From the NCBI RefSeq assembly GCF_009650095.1, contig NZ_CP045915.1:4030001-4094000 (forward strand): a stretch of DNA of 64,000 nt. Direction: 5' to 3'. Under the pieces are notes generated by a model, which did no database searches, was not told where the DNA came from, and saw only the letters and a list, made by a program, of their open reading frames with translations. Position 1 is the first letter of the stretch. The number at the start of each line of letters is the position of its first letter. A program made the translations under genes and the position numbers. Positions 4,963 to 31,650 of the stretch are shown here, piece by piece. The stretch is from Gracilibacillus salitolerans. Lineage in GTDB: Bacteria; Bacillota; Bacilli; Bacillales; Amphibacillaceae.

Positions 4963-6279
4963 TTACTTAAACCTATCTGCCTCACGATCTACTTTTTCCT
5001 TCGCATCATTGATGAGACTTTCGAGTGATCCATTATCTAATGCAATTCCTTCCATAATGTCACCAAGTGCATCTTCCAACACTGGGAAAATAGGAGATTT
5101 TGGCTTAAGATGGTTCGTATTGACTAACTGATCTAACATAAGCTTTCTTGGGTAATCGCTATATGTTTCGGATGAATCTAGCAACTCTTTATGACCTGGA
5201 ATTAATCCAGCCGCTTCTTCCATTTTGATCGCACTATCTTTGTTTGTTAAATGCGCTACTAGCTCAGCTGACAGTTCTGGATACTCTGTGTTTTGTGTTG
5301 CTGCGATATACCAGCTGCCATGCGGTGCTGATTGATGCCCATCTTTTCCATACGGGTAAGGCATGATCGACCAATTTAAATCTGGATACTCACTTTGAAA
5401 TACATCTACCATCCATGGTCCTTCAAAACTAATCGCCGCTTCCTCTAATGCAAAAGCGTCTTCTCTTGTTGTGGAAGCTACAATGCCATCTCTAAATAAT
5501 GTGTCTAAAAATTGTAATGCTTCCATTGTGTTGTTGCTATCTAAATATCCCTCTGTATCAAGACCATTTTCTCCGACCATTCTCGCATCATTGGAAAAGA
5601 TAATAGGAGAATGGGCATACATATGCCAACCGTTATTTTCTGTAAACATATGGACAGGCTCTTGACCCATGTGATCTTTAAGCTTTCTCGCATTCTCTAA
5701 AAATTCTTCATAACTCCAAGCTAAATCCAACGTCCAATTACCATTTTCATCTGCTGGCACCTCAATGCCTGCTTCTTCAAATAAATCGACGTTATAGTAA
5801 ACGGGTGATGATAAATCAAATGATTGCAAGGCGTAAATATTATCTCCTACACTACCAGCTGAAATAATGGTATCTAGGTATGAATCCAATGTTGCTTGAT
5901 CTAAATATTCATTGAGCGGTAAAAGAATATCAGAATCCGTATACGAAGCAGCATATACGCTCTCTAATGCGATAATATCTGGCAGTTCTCCAGTAGTGAT
6001 CGCTGCATTGAGCCGATCATTATAGCCGCTTCCTCCTCCTGTTTTGACGATATGTTCTACCGTCACGTCTACATTTTCATGAGCTTCTTCGAATTCTTTC
6101 GCTCTCACATCATAGTTTTCTCCTTCTGGTTCATCAGCAGGAACATGTACCCAAACTTCCAACTCTTTTACATCCTCTTCTGCATCACTGTTTTCCGAAG
6201 TATTATTTGATGAATTAGAACAAGCAGCTAATGCCAAGAAAATCAACGGGATCACCAGAAAACTAATTATATTTTTCAT
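4963..6279 (-). CDS. Extracellular sugar-binding lipoprotein of ABC importer
   Basis: A 438-residue family 1 solute-binding protein. Start at 6279 is set by AAAAGGAGGAGAAGTT before the ATG; an in-frame upstream ATG at 6315 would run across the operator and has no ribosome site. The N-terminus MKNIISFLVIPLIFLALAACSNS is a signal peptide with a lipobox (LAAC), so the mature protein is lipid-anchored outside the membrane. The SBP fold is seen in ELEVWVHVP near the start and in the AISFEGPWMVDVF segment near residue 280. It is the first gene of the operon with two permeases and two GH32 enzymes and would capture the substrate, probably a fructo-oligosaccharide. Expression is likely repressed by the adjacent LacI protein through the operators at 6300 and 6356. 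Confidence 0.93.
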   Translation of the reverse strand: MKNIISFLVIPLIFLALAACSNSSNNTSENSDAEEDVKELEVWVHVPADEPEGENYDVRAKEFEEAHENVDVTVEHIVKTGGGSGYNDRLNAAITTGELPDIIALESVYAASYTDSDILLPLNEYLDQATLDSYLDTIISAGSVGDNIYALQSFDLSSPVYYNVDLFEEAGIEVPADENGNWTLDLAWSYEEFLENARKLKDHMGQEPVHMFTENNGWHMYAHSPIIFSNDARMVGENGLDTEGYLDSNNTMEALQFLDTLFRDGIVASTTREDAFALEEAAISFEGPWMVDVFQSEYPDLNWSIMPYPYGKDGHQSAPHGSWYIAATQNTEYPELSAELVAHLTNKDSAIKMEEAAGLIPGHKELLDSSETYSDYPRKLMLDQLVNTNHLKPKSPIFPVLEDALGDIMEGIALDNGSLESLINDAKEKVDREADRFK

Positions 6280-25329: not shown

Positions 25330-25410
25330 CTTTACCTCTCCTTTACTATGATGTTTTTTGTTTACTAACCCCATTATAGAACGCTTACACAATTTGTATT
25401 TAGCATAAAT

Positions 25411-25523
25411 TTGCAATTTGTTAACATATATTGCTTTATTATTAAACTTCCATTGTATATATGTATAAAGTTATAATAGATTTATACAGTTCTTGCAATT
25501 TTTAATGATTAACAGAAATTGCA
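25411..25523. promoter_or_regulatory. Three TTGCAATTT half-sites in the divergent GH172/araC promoter region
   Basis: TTGCAATTT occurs at 25411-25419 and 25493-25501, and its inverse AAATTGCA at 25516-25523, the last two forming an inverted pair. They lie between the GH172 start and the AraC start and are candidate binding sites for that AraC protein. Core promoter boxes are not clear; TATAAT occurs at about 25473-25478. Confidence 0.5.
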
Positions 25524-25543
25524 TATCAGAATGAGGTGCTGGC

Positions 25544-26416
25544 GTGGAATTCAAAAACTTAACACCATATATTCGAGTGGCAATGGATAGTAAAATTAAG
25601 CCTCCCTTTTATATAAACCGGTCCATTTTTGATTATGAGTTAATATTTTTAAAAGAAGGAGAAATCCTTCTCGCAGTTGAGGATAATTCCTATCATTGTG
25701 TTCCAGGTGATATTATTTTTCTAAAACCTATGCAACATCATATGTTAAAGTCCATTAATGAAAACACTATTTATCAGCCACACATTCACTTTGATTTTTT
25801 TCATAGAGAAGATAGTAAGGATGTCAAAGTATCCTTTAAGAAAATGCATGAAATGACTCCAAAAGAGAATTCGTGGTTTAGAGAGGATATAACGAAGCAG
25901 GTTAATATAGATATATCACCTGTTATTCGTTTGAAAAATCCGATCATTATTGAAAATCTATTATTCGATATCATTAATGAATTTGATCAAAAGCTACCTT
26001 ATTATGAGGTTACGATCCAAGGGTTATTTTCACAATTATGGGGGTACATACAACGTGAGATTCATTGGCAAAAAAACACCCAAATTCAAAAATATTGGGA
26101 AGAAATTCAACATGTAAAAGCCTACATAAACCACCATCATGCCAGAGAGGTAACGCTTGAAGAACTGGAGAAAGTAGCAAATATTAGTAAGTATCACTTA
26201 GTCCGTTTATTTAAAATGACATACAGAGTGACTCCTATTAAGTATCACTTACAAATTCGAATAGAAAAAGCAAAGGAACTCATTCAGTATTCTGAGCTCT
26301 CAATCAACGAGATTGCAGAACGATTTGGTTTTAACTCTATTCATGCGTTTAGTCGATCATTTAAGAATATGGAAGGCGTCCCACCATCCTTTTATCGGAA
26401 ATCTAGTAAAGAGTAA
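25544..26416 (+). CDS. AraC family transcriptional regulator
   Basis: A 290-residue protein from a GTG start (GAGGTG 6-11 nt upstream). The N-terminal half is a cupin-type sensor (IFDYELIFLKEGEILLAVEDNSYHCVPGDIIFLKPMQHHML) and residues about 190-285 hold two AraC helix-turn-helix motifs (VTLEELEKVANISKYHLVRLFKMTYRVTPIKYHLQIRIEKAKELI; LSINEIAERFGFNSIHAFSRSFKNMEGVPPSFYRK). It is transcribed away from the GH172 gene and most likely activates it when the sugar is present. Confidence 0.9.
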   Translation: MEFKNLTPYIRVAMDSKIKPPFYINRSIFDYELIFLKEGEILLAVEDNSYHCVPGDIIFLKPMQHHMLKSINENTIYQPHIHFDFFHREDSKDVKVSFKKMHEMTPKENSWFREDITKQVNIDISPVIRLKNPIIIENLLFDIINEFDQKLPYYEVTIQGLFSQLWGYIQREIHWQKNTQIQKYWEEIQHVKAYINHHHAREVTLEELEKVANISKYHLVRLFKMTYRVTPIKYHLQIRIEKAKELIQYSELSINEIAERFGFNSIHAFSRSFKNMEGVPPSFYRKSSKE

Positions 26417-26448
26417 ACAAAGTTGATGGATTTAAAGTTGGCGTCACC

Positions 26449-26486
26449 ATTTACGTAGAACACTTCAGGTAGTGTTCTACGTAAAT
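26449..26486. other. 38-bp perfect inverted repeat between araC and rpiR genes
   Basis: A 16-bp perfect stem (26449-26464 with 26471-26486) with a 6-nt loop. It lies 33 nt after the AraC stop and 47 nt before the RpiR start. No T-run follows, so it may be a factor-dependent terminator, an operator, or an mRNA element. Confidence 0.6.
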
Positions 26487-26532
26487 CTTGGTTAAGATAG
26501 AATCAAAAGCTTAGATTAAAGGGGGCTCTCTC

Positions 26533-27309
26533 ATGAGCAACATATTATTTGATATTCCTGCGAACACTTACAAAACGTTAAGCGAAACGGAAAAGTATTT
26601 ACTAGAATATATTCACAATCATTTAGATGAGATTTCGTCTATGTCAATTGTCAAACTAAGTGAACATGCTAATGTATCCACTGCCACTATCGTAAGGTTA
26701 ATGAAGAAAATTGGATATGACGGGTATACTTCATTTAAGTATAGTCTAAAAGAAAAAGTGAAGCTTTCAGATGAAAATAATGAAATGGAAAACATTGACC
26801 AAAAGATTAAGCAAGCCATTCAAAAGAATGAGCATGAAGTTATCAAAACCATTCAATTACAAAGTATCGGCCAAATAGAAGACGCTGTCCAAAAAATGGA
26901 TGATGCGGAGAAAATTTTTGTGTTTGGGCGCGGTTTCTCTGAAATGATTGCTAAAGAAATGACAATCAAGCTACAGTTAATGGGAAAAAATTGCGAAGTA
27001 CATAACGATCCTAATATCATTAGAATAAAATCAAGAAATATACAACCAAATGAAATAGCTATTTTTGTTTCATTAAATGGGGAAACAGAGGAACTGGTCG
27101 AAGCTTGTAAAAACTTAAATATTAGGCAAATCACTACGATCACACTCACTACGAGAATGGAATCAAGCCTGGGACAAATGTCGGAAATGACATTTGTCGG
27201 GTACAAGGGAACCCAATCCTATTTCCCTGATTACGAAGTACGCTCCCGCCTTCCTCTAAGTGTTATCTCGCGAATATTATTAGATGCCTACGCAATACGA
27301 ATGCTTTAA
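26533..27309 (+). CDS. RpiR/MurR family transcriptional regulator
   Basis: A 258-residue regulator. N-terminal RpiR-type helix-turn-helix (LSETEKYLLEYIHNHLDEISSMSIVKLSEHANVSTATIVRLMKKIGYDGYTSFKY, about 17-75) and a C-terminal SIS phosphosugar-binding domain (about 110-240; KIFVFGRGFSEMIAKEM, EIAIFVSLNGETEELVEACKN). AAAGGGGG precedes the ATG. It lies directly upstream of the fructose PTS operon on the same strand but is separated from it by a terminator, and is its probable regulator, sensing a sugar phosphate such as fructose-1-phosphate. Confidence 0.9.
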   Translation: MSNILFDIPANTYKTLSETEKYLLEYIHNHLDEISSMSIVKLSEHANVSTATIVRLMKKIGYDGYTSFKYSLKEKVKLSDENNEMENIDQKIKQAIQKNEHEVIKTIQLQSIGQIEDAVQKMDDAEKIFVFGRGFSEMIAKEMTIKLQLMGKNCEVHNDPNIIRIKSRNIQPNEIAIFVSLNGETEELVEACKNLNIRQITTITLTTRMESSLGQMSEMTFVGYKGTQSYFPDYEVRSRLPLSVISRILLDAYAIRML

Positions 27310-27340
27310 AACTTGGCTATACGCCAAGTTTTTCTTTTTT
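27308..27340 (+). terminator. Intrinsic terminator after the rpiR-type gene
   Basis: AAAACTTGGC and GCCAAGTTTT form a 10-bp stem with a 5-nt loop, followed by TTTCTTTTTTT. It separates the regulator from the PTS operon, whose promoter must lie in 27341-27433, where I see no strong consensus pair. Confidence 0.9.
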
Positions 27341-27433
27341 TCATCGAACGAAAACCTTTACATAATCTGAAAACATTTACGCTATTTTCTATGCCATAAT
27401 GAAGGCAAATAGAAAAACAAGGCAGGTGGGGAC

Positions 27434-28372
27434 ATGATTTATACACTGACACCAAATCCAGCTATCGACCTTTATGTTGGATTAGACCAATTAAAACCTA
27501 GTGTTGTAAATCGAACATATGAAGAAGACTATCAGCCAAATGGTAAGGCAATTAATATATCTATTATGCTAAGCAAACTAGGAATTACCAATACAGCCAT
27601 GGGCTTTATCGGGGGATTTTCAGGAGAATTTATCGAACAAGAATTAAAGGAGATGTCCATTAACACTTCCATGATTTATGTAAAAGGAATTACTAGAATA
27701 AATGTATTCGCTAATGCTGACAAAGAATACAAAATTGTCAATAAAGGACCACTTGTTCCACACTCAAAAATAGTAGAAATGCTCGAAGAAATTCGGCGAA
27801 TACCTACTAACTGCACACTCTGTGTTTCAGGTAGTTTGCCTAGAGGTATCAAAGATGATTTTTATATCGAGATAGCTAAAATATGTCATCAAAAAAATAT
27901 CAAACTGATTTTAGATATTAGTTCACATGTTTTACTAGAGTGCTTGAAATATAAACCGTTACTAATTAAACCAAATGATGATGAGCTTGCCTCCCTTTTT
28001 CAACTGTCACCAGCAGAGCTCACTGAAGAGAAAATCATGGAGCTTAATAATACGCTTTTGAAAATGGGCGCTCAGCAAGTACTTGTTTCCAGAGGGGAAA
28101 AAGGAGCTATTTATTCCTCTCCTCAACGTATTGTGAAAGTAAGCTCAGCTAAAGGAGAAGTAGTGAACACTGCTTGTGCAGGTGATGCTATGCTAAGTAC
28201 TTTTATCGGAAAGTTAGAACTAAATGAATCAGTAGAAGATGCTTTAATCTATGCTTCTGCTGCAGGAGCAGCCACAGCTTTTAGTAAAGGTCTTTGTAGC
28301 CTTTCACATATTCAGGCACTTATATCAGATATTCTAATAGAAACATTAAAGGAGGAGAGTTTTTATGGCTAA
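27434..28372 (+). CDS. fruK: 1-phosphofructokinase (PfkB family)
   Basis: A 312-residue PfkB sugar kinase. It starts MIYTLTPNPAIDLYV, typical of FruK/LacC enzymes, with the substrate loop PNGKAINISIMLSKLG near residue 36, the GSLPRG motif near 136, and the C-terminal ATP/anion-hole signature NTACAGDAM near 250 with the catalytic Asp; the first Gly of the usual GAGD is Cys. It should convert fructose-1-phosphate from the PTS to fructose-1,6-bisphosphate. Its stop overlaps the EIIBC start by 8 nt. Tagatose-6-phosphate kinase is the main alternative, made less likely by the fructose-type EII. Confidence 0.87.
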   Translation: MIYTLTPNPAIDLYVGLDQLKPSVVNRTYEEDYQPNGKAINISIMLSKLGITNTAMGFIGGFSGEFIEQELKEMSINTSMIYVKGITRINVFANADKEYKIVNKGPLVPHSKIVEMLEEIRRIPTNCTLCVSGSLPRGIKDDFYIEIAKICHQKNIKLILDISSHVLLECLKYKPLLIKPNDDELASLFQLSPAELTEEKIMELNNTLLKMGAQQVLVSRGEKGAIYSSPQRIVKVSSAKGEVVNTACAGDAMLSTFIGKLELNESVEDALIYASAAGAATAFSKGLCSLSHIQALISDILIETLKEESFYG

Positions 28373-29807
28373 TATTAAAATTGTTGCAACAACAGGTTGC
28401 CCGACAGGTATTGCGCATACTTTTATGGCAGAAGAATCCCTAAAGAAAGCAGCAAAGAAGCTTGGGGTGGAGATTAAAGTAGAAACACATGGGCAAGTTG
28501 GAGTTGAAAATGAGCTTTCCAAAGAAGACATTGCCGAAGCTGATGGAGTCATTATTGCTGCAGATAAAGATGTCTATGCCTATCGTTTCCATGGAAAGCC
28601 AACAGTGGAAGTATCTGTTGCGAAAGGAATCCATGAAGCGGAGAAATTAATTCAAACAATCATTGACGGGAAAGCAACGGTATACAAAGCGAAGAAGAGT
28701 GATACCACTGAGGAAGATGAAAGCGCATCAAACAAAGGCGGTAATAACATCGCACATTCCATTTACAAACATCTAATGAATGGTGTTTCCCACATGCTTC
28801 CATTTGTTGTAGGTGGTGGGGTTCTGATTGCACTATCATTTTTATTTGGTATACATTCCGCTGATCCAGATCACGAAAGCTATAGTCCTATTGCTGCAAC
28901 GCTAAATGATATTGGGGGTCTTGGTTTTCAAATGATGGTGCCAATTCTGGCAGCATTTATTGCAGAGTCTATTGCTAAGAGACCCGGTATGGTAGTTGGT
29001 TTTATCGGTGGTTTAATTGCAAGCAATGGCGGAGCCGGATTCTTAGGAGGTATTGCCGCTGGTTTCCTTGGTGGTTTCATTATTGTATTGCTAGGTAAAT
29101 TACTAGAAAGAATGCCAAAATCACTAAACGGACTTAAATCGATATTTTTATATCCTTTAATCGGCATCTTATTAGTCGGTGTAATCATGACTTTATTGGT
29201 AGAGCCAATGACAGCAATAAATGAAGGCATGATGTCTTTCTTAAGTAGTTTCCAAAATGCAAATCCTATTTTACTTGGCGTAATTGTTGGTGCCATGAGT
29301 GCCTTTGATATGGGTGGCCCAGTCAATAAAGCTGCCTACGTAACGGGTACTGCTTTACTTGGAGAGGGGAACTACTACTTTATGGCCGGTGTTTCTGCAG
29401 CTTGTATTACACCACCACTTATTACAGCATTTGCAACGGTATTTTTCAAAAAATATTTTAATCAGGCAGAGCGTAATGCCGGTGGGGTTAACTTTATTCT
29501 TGGATCCACTCACATTACAGAAGGCGCCATCCCGTTTGCAGCGAAAAACCCTATTGTCGTGATTCCTATATTAATGATCGGTTCATCTGTATCCGCTATT
29601 TTGACGTATATGATGAACATCGAAGTACCAGCTCCACACGGTGGATTCCTCGTATTACCAGTTGTTACAGGAGCTATACTATGGATCATTGCAATATTAA
29701 TCGGTTCCCTGGTTGGGGCAGTTATATATGGTTTTTATAAAAAACGTGCTTATTTAAAAGATCAAAAAACTAAAGGTGGGGAAAATGATGGACAACAAAT
29801 TGCTTGA
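28365..29807 (+). CDS. PTS fructose-type EIIBC transporter
   Basis: A 480-residue fructose-family enzyme II. The N-terminal EIIB domain (1-100) begins with IVATTGCPTGIAHTFMAEE and phosphorylatable Cys12. After a hydrophilic linker (about 105-125), the EIIC domain has eight to ten membrane helices, with MAGVSAACITPPLITAF and ITEGAIPFAAKNP. EIIC takes up and EIIB phosphorylates the sugar, probably giving fructose-1-phosphate. It lacks a fused EIIA domain; the separate EIIA gene overlaps its 3' end but is interrupted. GGAGGAG precedes the ATG inside the kinase gene. Confidence 0.92.
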   Translation: MANIKIVATTGCPTGIAHTFMAEESLKKAAKKLGVEIKVETHGQVGVENELSKEDIAEADGVIIAADKDVYAYRFHGKPTVEVSVAKGIHEAEKLIQTIIDGKATVYKAKKSDTTEEDESASNKGGNNIAHSIYKHLMNGVSHMLPFVVGGGVLIALSFLFGIHSADPDHESYSPIAATLNDIGGLGFQMMVPILAAFIAESIAKRPGMVVGFIGGLIASNGGAGFLGGIAAGFLGGFIIVLLGKLLERMPKSLNGLKSIFLYPLIGILLVGVIMTLLVEPMTAINEGMMSFLSSFQNANPILLGVIVGAMSAFDMGGPVNKAAYVTGTALLGEGNYYFMAGVSAACITPPLITAFATVFFKKYFNQAERNAGGVNFILGSTHITEGAIPFAAKNPIVVIPILMIGSSVSAILTYMMNIEVPAPHGGFLVLPVVTGAILWIIAILIGSLVGAVIYGFYKKRAYLKDQKTKGGENDGQQIA

Positions 29808-30243
29808 TATTAACCAAATTAAATTAAAACAACAGCTGACAACACAGGAAGAGGTTTTTGAAGAAATCGCAACTATTGCCATTAGTCAAGGCATTGCTAC
29901 AGATTCCAACGAGGTTGTGAATGGATTACTAACGCGTGAAAATGAAAGTACAACAGGCTTTCAAGATGGATTTGCCATTCCACATGCACAAGTTGATGCG
30001 ATTAAACGGCCTGCTATTGTCGTTGTATCTTCTAAAGAAGGAGTGTAATGGGATGCTTTAGATGGAAAACCAGCTATCTTCTTTATCGCTCTATTAATTC
30101 CAAAACAAGAAGCAGGTACTACTCATATTCAAGCACTTGCATCTATTTCGAGAATGTTAATTTATGAAGAAAAACGGGAAGCACTAGCAAATGCTAAAGA
30201 TGCAGACACCGTAATGGAAGAGCTAGCAGGAGCTTTCGCATAA
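29788..30243 (+). pseudogene. PTS fructose EIIA gene interrupted by an in-frame TAA
   Basis: From ATG 29788 (or 29785; GGTGGGG upstream) the first 86 codons encode the N-terminal part of a fructose/mannitol-type EIIA, including the phosphorylation site FAIPHAQ (His66). Codon 87 (30046-30048) is TAA. The same frame continues without frameshift for 64 sense codons to TAA at 30241: WDALDGKPAIFFIALL, then a normal C-terminal half. In this family the residue before WDALDG is commonly Glu, so one GAA-to-TAA change explains the stop. The rest shows no decay, which points to a recent mutation, a sequence error, or readthrough. If real, EIIBC would need another EIIA. Confidence 0.88.
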
Positions 30244-30293
30244 ATTACGGACGGTTAACGTCGTAATAAAATTTTACCTAGGGGGAGAATCAT

Positions 30294-31205
30294 ATGACAC
30301 TCGTATCATCTACACCAATGTTACAAGAAGCTAGAGAATCCGGTTATGGCATTGTTGCCTTTAATGTTCACTCTTTCGATATGCTTTATTCGGTTGCAGA
30401 AGCGGCAGCTGAGATAGATGCACCAGTTATTATTCAAACAACGGTTGGGACAGTTCAAAATTTAGGTCCAGACAGCATTGTGAAAACAGCACATGCTGCA
30501 TCTGAAAAATATGATATTCCAATGGCACTCCACTTAGATCATTGTACTGATTTAGATGTAATAATCAAGTGCATTCGCGCAGGTTACACATCTATCATGA
30601 TTGATGCTTCGATGCATCCATTTGAAGAAAATGTACGTCTTACAAATCAAGTAATGAATATTGCTAAATATATTGATGTAAATGTAGAAGCAGAATTAGG
30701 AAAAGTTGGTGGCGTAGAAGATAATATTATTGTTTCCGATAAAGATGCGGAAAAAGCAGTACCTGCTGAATGCAAGGAATTTATCGAACGAACCGGCGTA
30801 CCAACATTAGCCCCAGCAATCGGCACTGCACATGGTATTTACAGCGGTGATCCGGATATAGACTTTGAGCGAATTAAAGAAATCGCCAACCTTATCGATG
30901 AACCGCTCGTTCTGCATGGTGGATCTGCTATTCCAGCAGAGGATGTAAAACAATGCATATCATTAGGAATGGCAAAAATGAACGTATCAACAGAATTAAA
31001 AAACGCTTACTCAGAAGCAATAAAGGAACACTTTTCTGAAACACCAGATTCATTAGATCCTAGAAAGTATCTATCCAAAGCAAAAGAAGTAGCAAAAGAA
31101 CTAGCAAAAGAGAAAATGACATTAGTCGGATGCGCTAGGAAAGCGCCAGAAATAAAGGTAAAGGCATATCCAAATCGAAATAAATTAGATTCCTTGCATG
31201 TATAG
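30294..31205 (+). CDS. Class II (metal-dependent) ketose-bisphosphate aldolase
   Basis: A 303-residue class II aldolase. Metal-binding ALHLDHCTD (about 80-88), the MIDASMHPFEENVRLT segment, EAELGKVGG, IGTAHGIY and the phosphate-binding VLHGGSAIP are all present. It should split fructose-1,6-bisphosphate (or tagatose-1,6-bisphosphate) to DHAP and glyceraldehyde-3-phosphate, completing the route from PTS sugar to glycolysis. It starts 50 nt after the EIIA frame, with TAGGGGGAG upstream, and is the last gene of the operon. Confidence 0.9.
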   Translation: MTLVSSTPMLQEARESGYGIVAFNVHSFDMLYSVAEAAAEIDAPVIIQTTVGTVQNLGPDSIVKTAHAASEKYDIPMALHLDHCTDLDVIIKCIRAGYTSIMIDASMHPFEENVRLTNQVMNIAKYIDVNVEAELGKVGGVEDNIIVSDKDAEKAVPAECKEFIERTGVPTLAPAIGTAHGIYSGDPDIDFERIKEIANLIDEPLVLHGGSAIPAEDVKQCISLGMAKMNVSTELKNAYSEAIKEHFSETPDSLDPRKYLSKAKEVAKELAKEKMTLVGCARKAPEIKVKAYPNRNKLDSLHV

Positions 31206-31228
31206 GGATGGATTGTTGTATTAGTTGA

Positions 31229-31259
31229 AACGCCTCACTTTTTTTAAGAGTGAGGCGTT
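31229..31259 (+). terminator. Hairpin after the fructose operon
   Basis: AACGCCTCACT pairs with AGTGAGGCGTT (11 bp) with a T-rich loop. Only a weak T tract follows. It lies 23 nt after the aldolase stop. Confidence 0.65.
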
Positions 31260-31650
31260 GATATTTATTACTTGTGAGAAGCTGAAAAAAAGTAAGTATG
31301 CAAAATCCCCACAATAGTCTATGAGTATTTCACAACGAAATCGCCATCTTCTAAAAAGGTTAGGATGACCTATCTCTTTTTAAAATCCTTATTCCAAGTA
31401 CCCATACATAAATCATCCATATACATTTCTGCAGAATTGTATTCTAAAACATTACGTGTAGACATAGTATTTTTGACCGCGTATAGAGAAATGTGCCTTT
31501 TTGGTCCGTATACTGCTCTGCAAATGACAATTGTATATTGTAGTTTTCCCCATTTGTATCAAACAAGGTAATATTAAGCGCTTAAGAAATACATTAAAAT
31601 AACGATTAATATGAATCATACATTAGCTATCTCCTTTTCTACTATAATCT
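31260..31650. other. Intergenic region between converging transcription units
   Basis: An AT-rich gap between the fructose operon (plus) and the GntR gene (minus). I see no convincing gene; the only distinct element is the 12-bp palindrome TTAAGCGCTTAA at 31574-31585, whose role is unknown. Confidence 0.4.

Follow-up and report, generated by a model that had tools for sequence, protein, structure and literature searches.

The DNA analyzed here, referred to as the window, is a stretch of 64,000 nucleotides from Gracilibacillus salitolerans (positions 4,030,001 to 4,094,000 of contig NZ_CP045915.1, assembly GCF_009650095.1). It contains a sugar phosphotransferase (PTS) operon with genes for a kinase, EIIBC, EIIA, and an aldolase, in which the small gene for EIIA, the component required to energize the importer, is interrupted by a single in-frame stop codon. 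The features of this locus, in window coordinates and with the evidence for each, are as follows.

26533..27309, + strand: MurR/RpiR-type regulator, which adjoins the operon in close relatives (profile matches, alignment to relatives)
27308..27332, + strand: terminator-like hairpin between regulator and operon (hairpin scan)
27434..28372, + strand: ketohexose-1-phosphate kinase of the 1-PFK family, probably a tagatose-1-phosphate kinase (TIGR03828; identities)
28365..29807, + strand: EIIBC, putatively of a tagatose-type clade (TIGR01427 and TIGR00829 above cut-off; tree; identities)
29788..30243, + strand: interrupted EIIA (PTS_EIIA_2) gene, whole frame including the natural stop (translation; PF00359, TIGR00848)
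29788..30045, + strand: EIIA N-terminal part, 86 residues, with the putative phospho-acceptor His66 (PF00359, 76.6 bits)
30046..30048, + strand: premature in-frame TAA at codon 87 (translation; whole-genome search)
30049..30240, + strand: EIIA C-terminal part, 64 residues (PF00359, 37.0 bits; codon list)
30294..31205, + strand: class II ketose-bisphosphate aldolase, GatY-like (TIGR00167 above cut-off; identities)
31229..31259, + strand: terminator-like hairpin at the operon end (hairpin scan)

The 3′ end of the EIIBC gene overlaps the start of the EIIA gene by 20 bases. The EIIA start thus falls within the final 20 bases of EIIBC (29788-29807), and the two genes are probably translationally coupled through this overlap. 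The hairpin scan found 8 hairpins in 26300-31400, compared with a mean of 3.7 in shuffled sequences. As originally predicted, the rest of the operon has open reading frames in the window, and its genes can be aligned from end to end with those of the closest relatives without a change of frame. The genome holds no second copy of the locus; the sole other DNA match spans 48 bases. Upstream of the operon (25544-26416) is a gene for an AraC-type regulator. Eight of nine relatives' loci had no match to it (the flanks of L014 and L015 are too short to tell), and the weak match in L042 (28.7 bits) is on the operon's other side; judged from these comparisons, the gene probably lies outside the conserved operon.

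Translation of 29788-30243 yields 151 residues with a single internal stop, directly followed by WDALDG in the same register. A whole-genome PF00359 search likewise counted one TAA at genome positions 4059800-4060225, which correspond to this EIIA. With X in place of the stop, the protein gives a full-length domain match to PF00359 (PTS_EIIA_2; 127.4 bits) and exceeds the cut-off of the fructose-type model TIGR00848 (120.9 versus 103.5 bits); the N-terminal and C-terminal parts are each above the PF00359 cut-off of 27 bits on their own. The gene therefore has the complete domain of this family but not an uninterrupted frame, and the original prediction of a TAA at codon 87, with an open frame in register on both sides, is confirmed. 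His66, in the sequence GFAIPHAQ of the N-terminal part, is the histidine of an AIPH motif, which we take to be the phospho-acceptor. The nearest solved structures are those of PtsN proteins (65 bits) and mannitol EIIA (28 bits).

We compared the locus with relatives fetched by means of EIIBC. Matches were present in 53 of 61 genomes, counting that of the window, from sets containing one genome per species; at least 80 loci of named organisms among the matches listed were taken into the comparison. EIIA was searched for in 110 loci (L011 to L120, including the window's own, L011, and some duplicates of one place), and 97 of those listed had a match of at least 25 bits while 13 did not. Among these, a stop within the aligned EIIA stretch occurs in the window alone: none of the other 96 loci listed carries one. 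A few of these 96 repeat a place already counted, and many are nonorthologous EIIA domains of the FruA type. The four closest genus mates are among the loci lacking the stop, and the gene thus bears a disabling lesion that is absent from its orthologs. With its open flanking frame, family-typical sequence, and no counterpart among the 96 other loci listed, the interruption goes beyond chance.

After removal of identical rows, 94 distinct EIIA sequences among the matches listed were left, 93 of them from outside the window. None of these 93 ends naturally at codon 87, and the closest relatives have intact copies. The original prediction had also named Glu as the typical residue at the stop column. 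This holds for the closer relatives (E in 31 and D in 1 of the 32 distinct listed rows above 100 bits) but not across the 93 distinct other rows listed, where Asp outnumbers Glu (D 44, E 37, S 4, T 4, N 2, K 1, and G 1). As a control, we inspected alignment stops in the relative L045, one in EIIBC and two in the aldolase. Its open reading frames end at 5398 (EIIBC) and 6746 (aldolase), short of the aligned stretches, which run to 5401 and 6782, so these stops are gene ends. An open EIIA frame directly follows EIIBC in all 22 of the closest named loci listed (L041 to L062), indicating that an EIIA in cis is normally kept; across the named loci listed, an EIIA-like frame lies within the fetched stretch in 76 of 80 and is lacking in 4.

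Signs of decay were sought with dN/dS (Nei-Gojobori), comparing the window with four genus mates and the mates among themselves. For the N-terminal part, values are 0.10 to 0.25 for the window versus mates and 0.075 to 0.18 among mates; for the C-terminal part, they are 0.135 to 0.24 and 0.04 to 0.16, respectively, with one mate pair not computable. The upper ends of the window's ranges are slightly above those of the mates (0.25 versus 0.18 and 0.24 versus 0.16); L015 is the mate behind these top values, and its comparison with the window also yields 0.21 for the kinase. Besides the stop, the window's EIIA has 6 private residues, compared with 5, 5, 11, and 1 in the four mates. Relative to these four mates, therefore, neither dN/dS nor private changes reveal clear decay of EIIA. 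The test is weak because the branches are long (window-to-mate dS in the N-terminal part ranges from 0.33 to 1.67). Low dN/dS in both halves and the lack of a clear private excess imply that the break is either young or not real, and the lack of decay is as compatible with an assembly base error as with a young break.

The original prediction called the interrupted gene a fructose EIIA. That one nonsense codon breaks an EIIA which is otherwise intact is borne out, but the fructose substrate is probably wrong. An EIIBC tree with 54 rows puts the window together with Klebsiella and Bacillus licheniformis-group loci in a clade of 36 (support 100/99), while the genome's own FruA is in a separate clade of 17 with the FruA-type rows of relatives (98/90). 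The tree includes, at its root, the genome's own paralogue L003, a very long branch whose join may be false. L003 is a fused fructose-superfamily EII that lies at 525473-528040 next to L007, another long frame containing an EIIA domain. Identities to the Bacillus paralicheniformis locus (L052) are 70% for EIIBC, 56% for the kinase, and 46% for the aldolase; to the Klebsiella pneumoniae locus (L082), they are 59%, 40%, and 45%. The genome's own paralogues are 48% (FruA, to EIIBC), 36% (FruK, to the kinase), and 39% identical (to the aldolase, the best of five own paralogues compared out of seven others known). Own FruK (4826202-4827107; 345.8 bits) and FruA (a 628-codon frame, with EIIA at 4825705-4826130 and EIIBC at 4824286-4825641) are without stops.

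Because its EIIBC groups with the Klebsiella and B. licheniformis-group loci and apart from the genome's own FruA, the window's operon is probably not a fructose operon. Several enteric bacteria and B. licheniformis possess a D-tagatose PTS with a class II aldolase, according to passages of one published study (PMC10101011). Going by organism and gene content, the B. paralicheniformis and K. pneumoniae loci appear to be, or to match, characterized tagatose systems. The window combines an EIIBC of this clade with an adjacent ketohexose-1-phosphate kinase and a class II bisphosphate aldolase, and its substrate is likely D-tagatose. Two observations speak against the assignment: the kinase passes the cut-off of the 1-phosphofructokinase model TIGR03828 (311.5 versus 292 bits), and the aldolase, for which tagatose-bisphosphate aldolase models rank top but all stay below their own cut-offs, misses that of the first-ranked GatY model (344.2 versus a curated 383 bits). 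Among the papers listed, no title or abstract opening deals with this operon in Gracilibacillus.

Of 16 genus mates, only 4 encode an EIIBC at least 91% identical to the window's (91 to 93%), which makes the operon appear optional. The other 12 lack one; among these, one has a relative of 59% identity and two are less than 85% complete. The operon is patchy in the genus, and losing it is probably of little cost. No defect is seen in the general PTS proteins, since EI and three HPr matches above cut-off are all free of stops. Nine further PF00359 matches, likewise free of stops, are present in the genome, and the closest to the window's EIIA by phmmer is the EIIA domain of FruA, at 32% identity. 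Two adjacent EIIA domains (L005 and L009), in frames of 651 and 148 codons, lie at 4095344-4096206, just past the end of the window, and a class II aldolase lies near them at 4099249; this neighborhood (4095344-4099249) is probably another PTS operon.

Taken together, these data make it probable, and we hold this with some confidence, that a second ketohexose PTS (kinase-EIIBC-EIIA-aldolase), whose substrate is probably D-tagatose, has had its EIIA cut short by a recent nonsense substitution in the lineage of this strain. Translation would end after 86 residues, and the fragment would retain the phosphorylatable His but lack the rest of the domain. Because such a truncated EIIA would presumably not fold or transfer phosphate usefully, EIIB would be left uncharged, and the system would no longer import its sugar, or would do so only weakly via another EIIA in trans. 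The patchy distribution of the operon suggests that the loss would be cheap.

Among the alternatives, the TAA could be a base error in the assembly, with the gene intact in the organism. A single-base difference could suffice to produce it, both EIIA halves have low dN/dS without clear decay, and the remaining operon genes are open. Against this, the assembly is a single contig of 5.09 Mb that is 99.68% complete, and there is no frameshift among the operon genes aligned to relatives. Long-read assemblies generally contain fewer substitution errors than indels, although the sequencing method used here may differ. We consider a base error unlikely, and in our judgement inactivation is the likelier of the two; overall, what is seen here is apparently either an optional gene's recent loss, of an ordinary kind, or an assembly base error.

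A further alternative, compatible with the truncation favored above rather than exclusive of it, is that the transporter functions despite a true loss of its EIIA, with EIIB being phosphorylated in trans by another EIIA, most likely the domain of FruA. Such substitution had been raised in the original prediction, and the nine stop-free PF00359 matches elsewhere in the genome make it possible; the kinase, EIIBC, and aldolase frames are moreover open and have low dN/dS. Fructose proteins handle tagatose in Escherichia coli, though phosphate transfer between systems is not what passages of the same study describe: E. coli adapted to tagatose needed endogenous FruA and FruK, and FruB was proposed as the EIIA (PMC10101011). 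A report on Azospirillum (PMC11837500) was set aside, the relevant passages concerning cross-complementation of FruA and not of EIIA. Weighing against supply in trans, even the nearest EIIA is only 32% identical and is fused to FruA, and the EIIA in cis at all 22 close loci listed argues that supply in trans is normally insufficient. We regard a transporter working in this way as quite improbable. More improbable still is a settled arrangement in which the open kinase-EIIBC-aldolase unit has dispensed with an EIIA of its own and is supplied with phosphate by that of FruA; if FruA did supply the phosphate, tagatose uptake would be tied to the fructose system.

Read-through or recoding of the UAA at codon 87 to give full-length EIIA, also raised originally, is hardly credible, although the frame after the stop is in register and has low dN/dS: none of the 62 tRNAs found carries a stop-reading anticodon (UUA, CUA, or UCA), no Rfam element reaches its gathering score in 25400-31400, and the lack of a stop in the 96 other loci listed leaves conserved recoding unsupported. 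These 62 tRNAs were read by ARAGORN in 13 stretches with 62 Rfam tRNA matches; the first pass scored 150 of 308 candidates, so that a weak tRNA could be missed, and a suppressor tRNA was rejected on this basis. Restart of translation after the stop was rejected as well: there is a purine-rich stretch upstream, yet the C-terminal part reaches residue 123 before its first in-frame ATG, GTG, TTG, or CTG. The only such codons after the stop are ATG at residues 123 and 143, with ATC and ATT occurring from residue 97 on.

Truncation by a recent nonsense substitution thus remains the preferred reading. Until tested, the tagatose-type PTS of this genome is best not listed among functional systems, and the label fructose EIIA should be avoided. 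If the stop is real, the organism would be a natural EIIA-null strain, usable for asking whether fructose-superfamily EIIAs substitute for one another. Beyond annotation the finding has little importance, and its mechanism is ordinary.

Compared with known systems, the operon shares protein superfamilies with the FruK-FruA fructose PTS, and its EIIA and kinase exceed the TIGR00848 and TIGR03828 cut-offs; it differs in that its EIIBC lies outside the FruA clade and in that the genome has a separate, stop-free FruK-FruA pair at about 4824 to 4827 kb. Like the D-tagatose PTS operons of Klebsiella and B. licheniformis (tagKTH and gatY), it has adjacent genes for kinase, EIIBC, EIIA, and class II aldolase, but here the EIIA is interrupted. 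The EIIA partner in Klebsiella, which passages of the literature describe as being of the EIIA/HPr kind, is only 26% identical to that of the window. Strain-level nonsense pseudogenes occur in bacterial sugar operons, and the window's EIIA resembles them in its one in-frame stop, its open neighbors, and its optional function, with nothing distinctive to set it apart.
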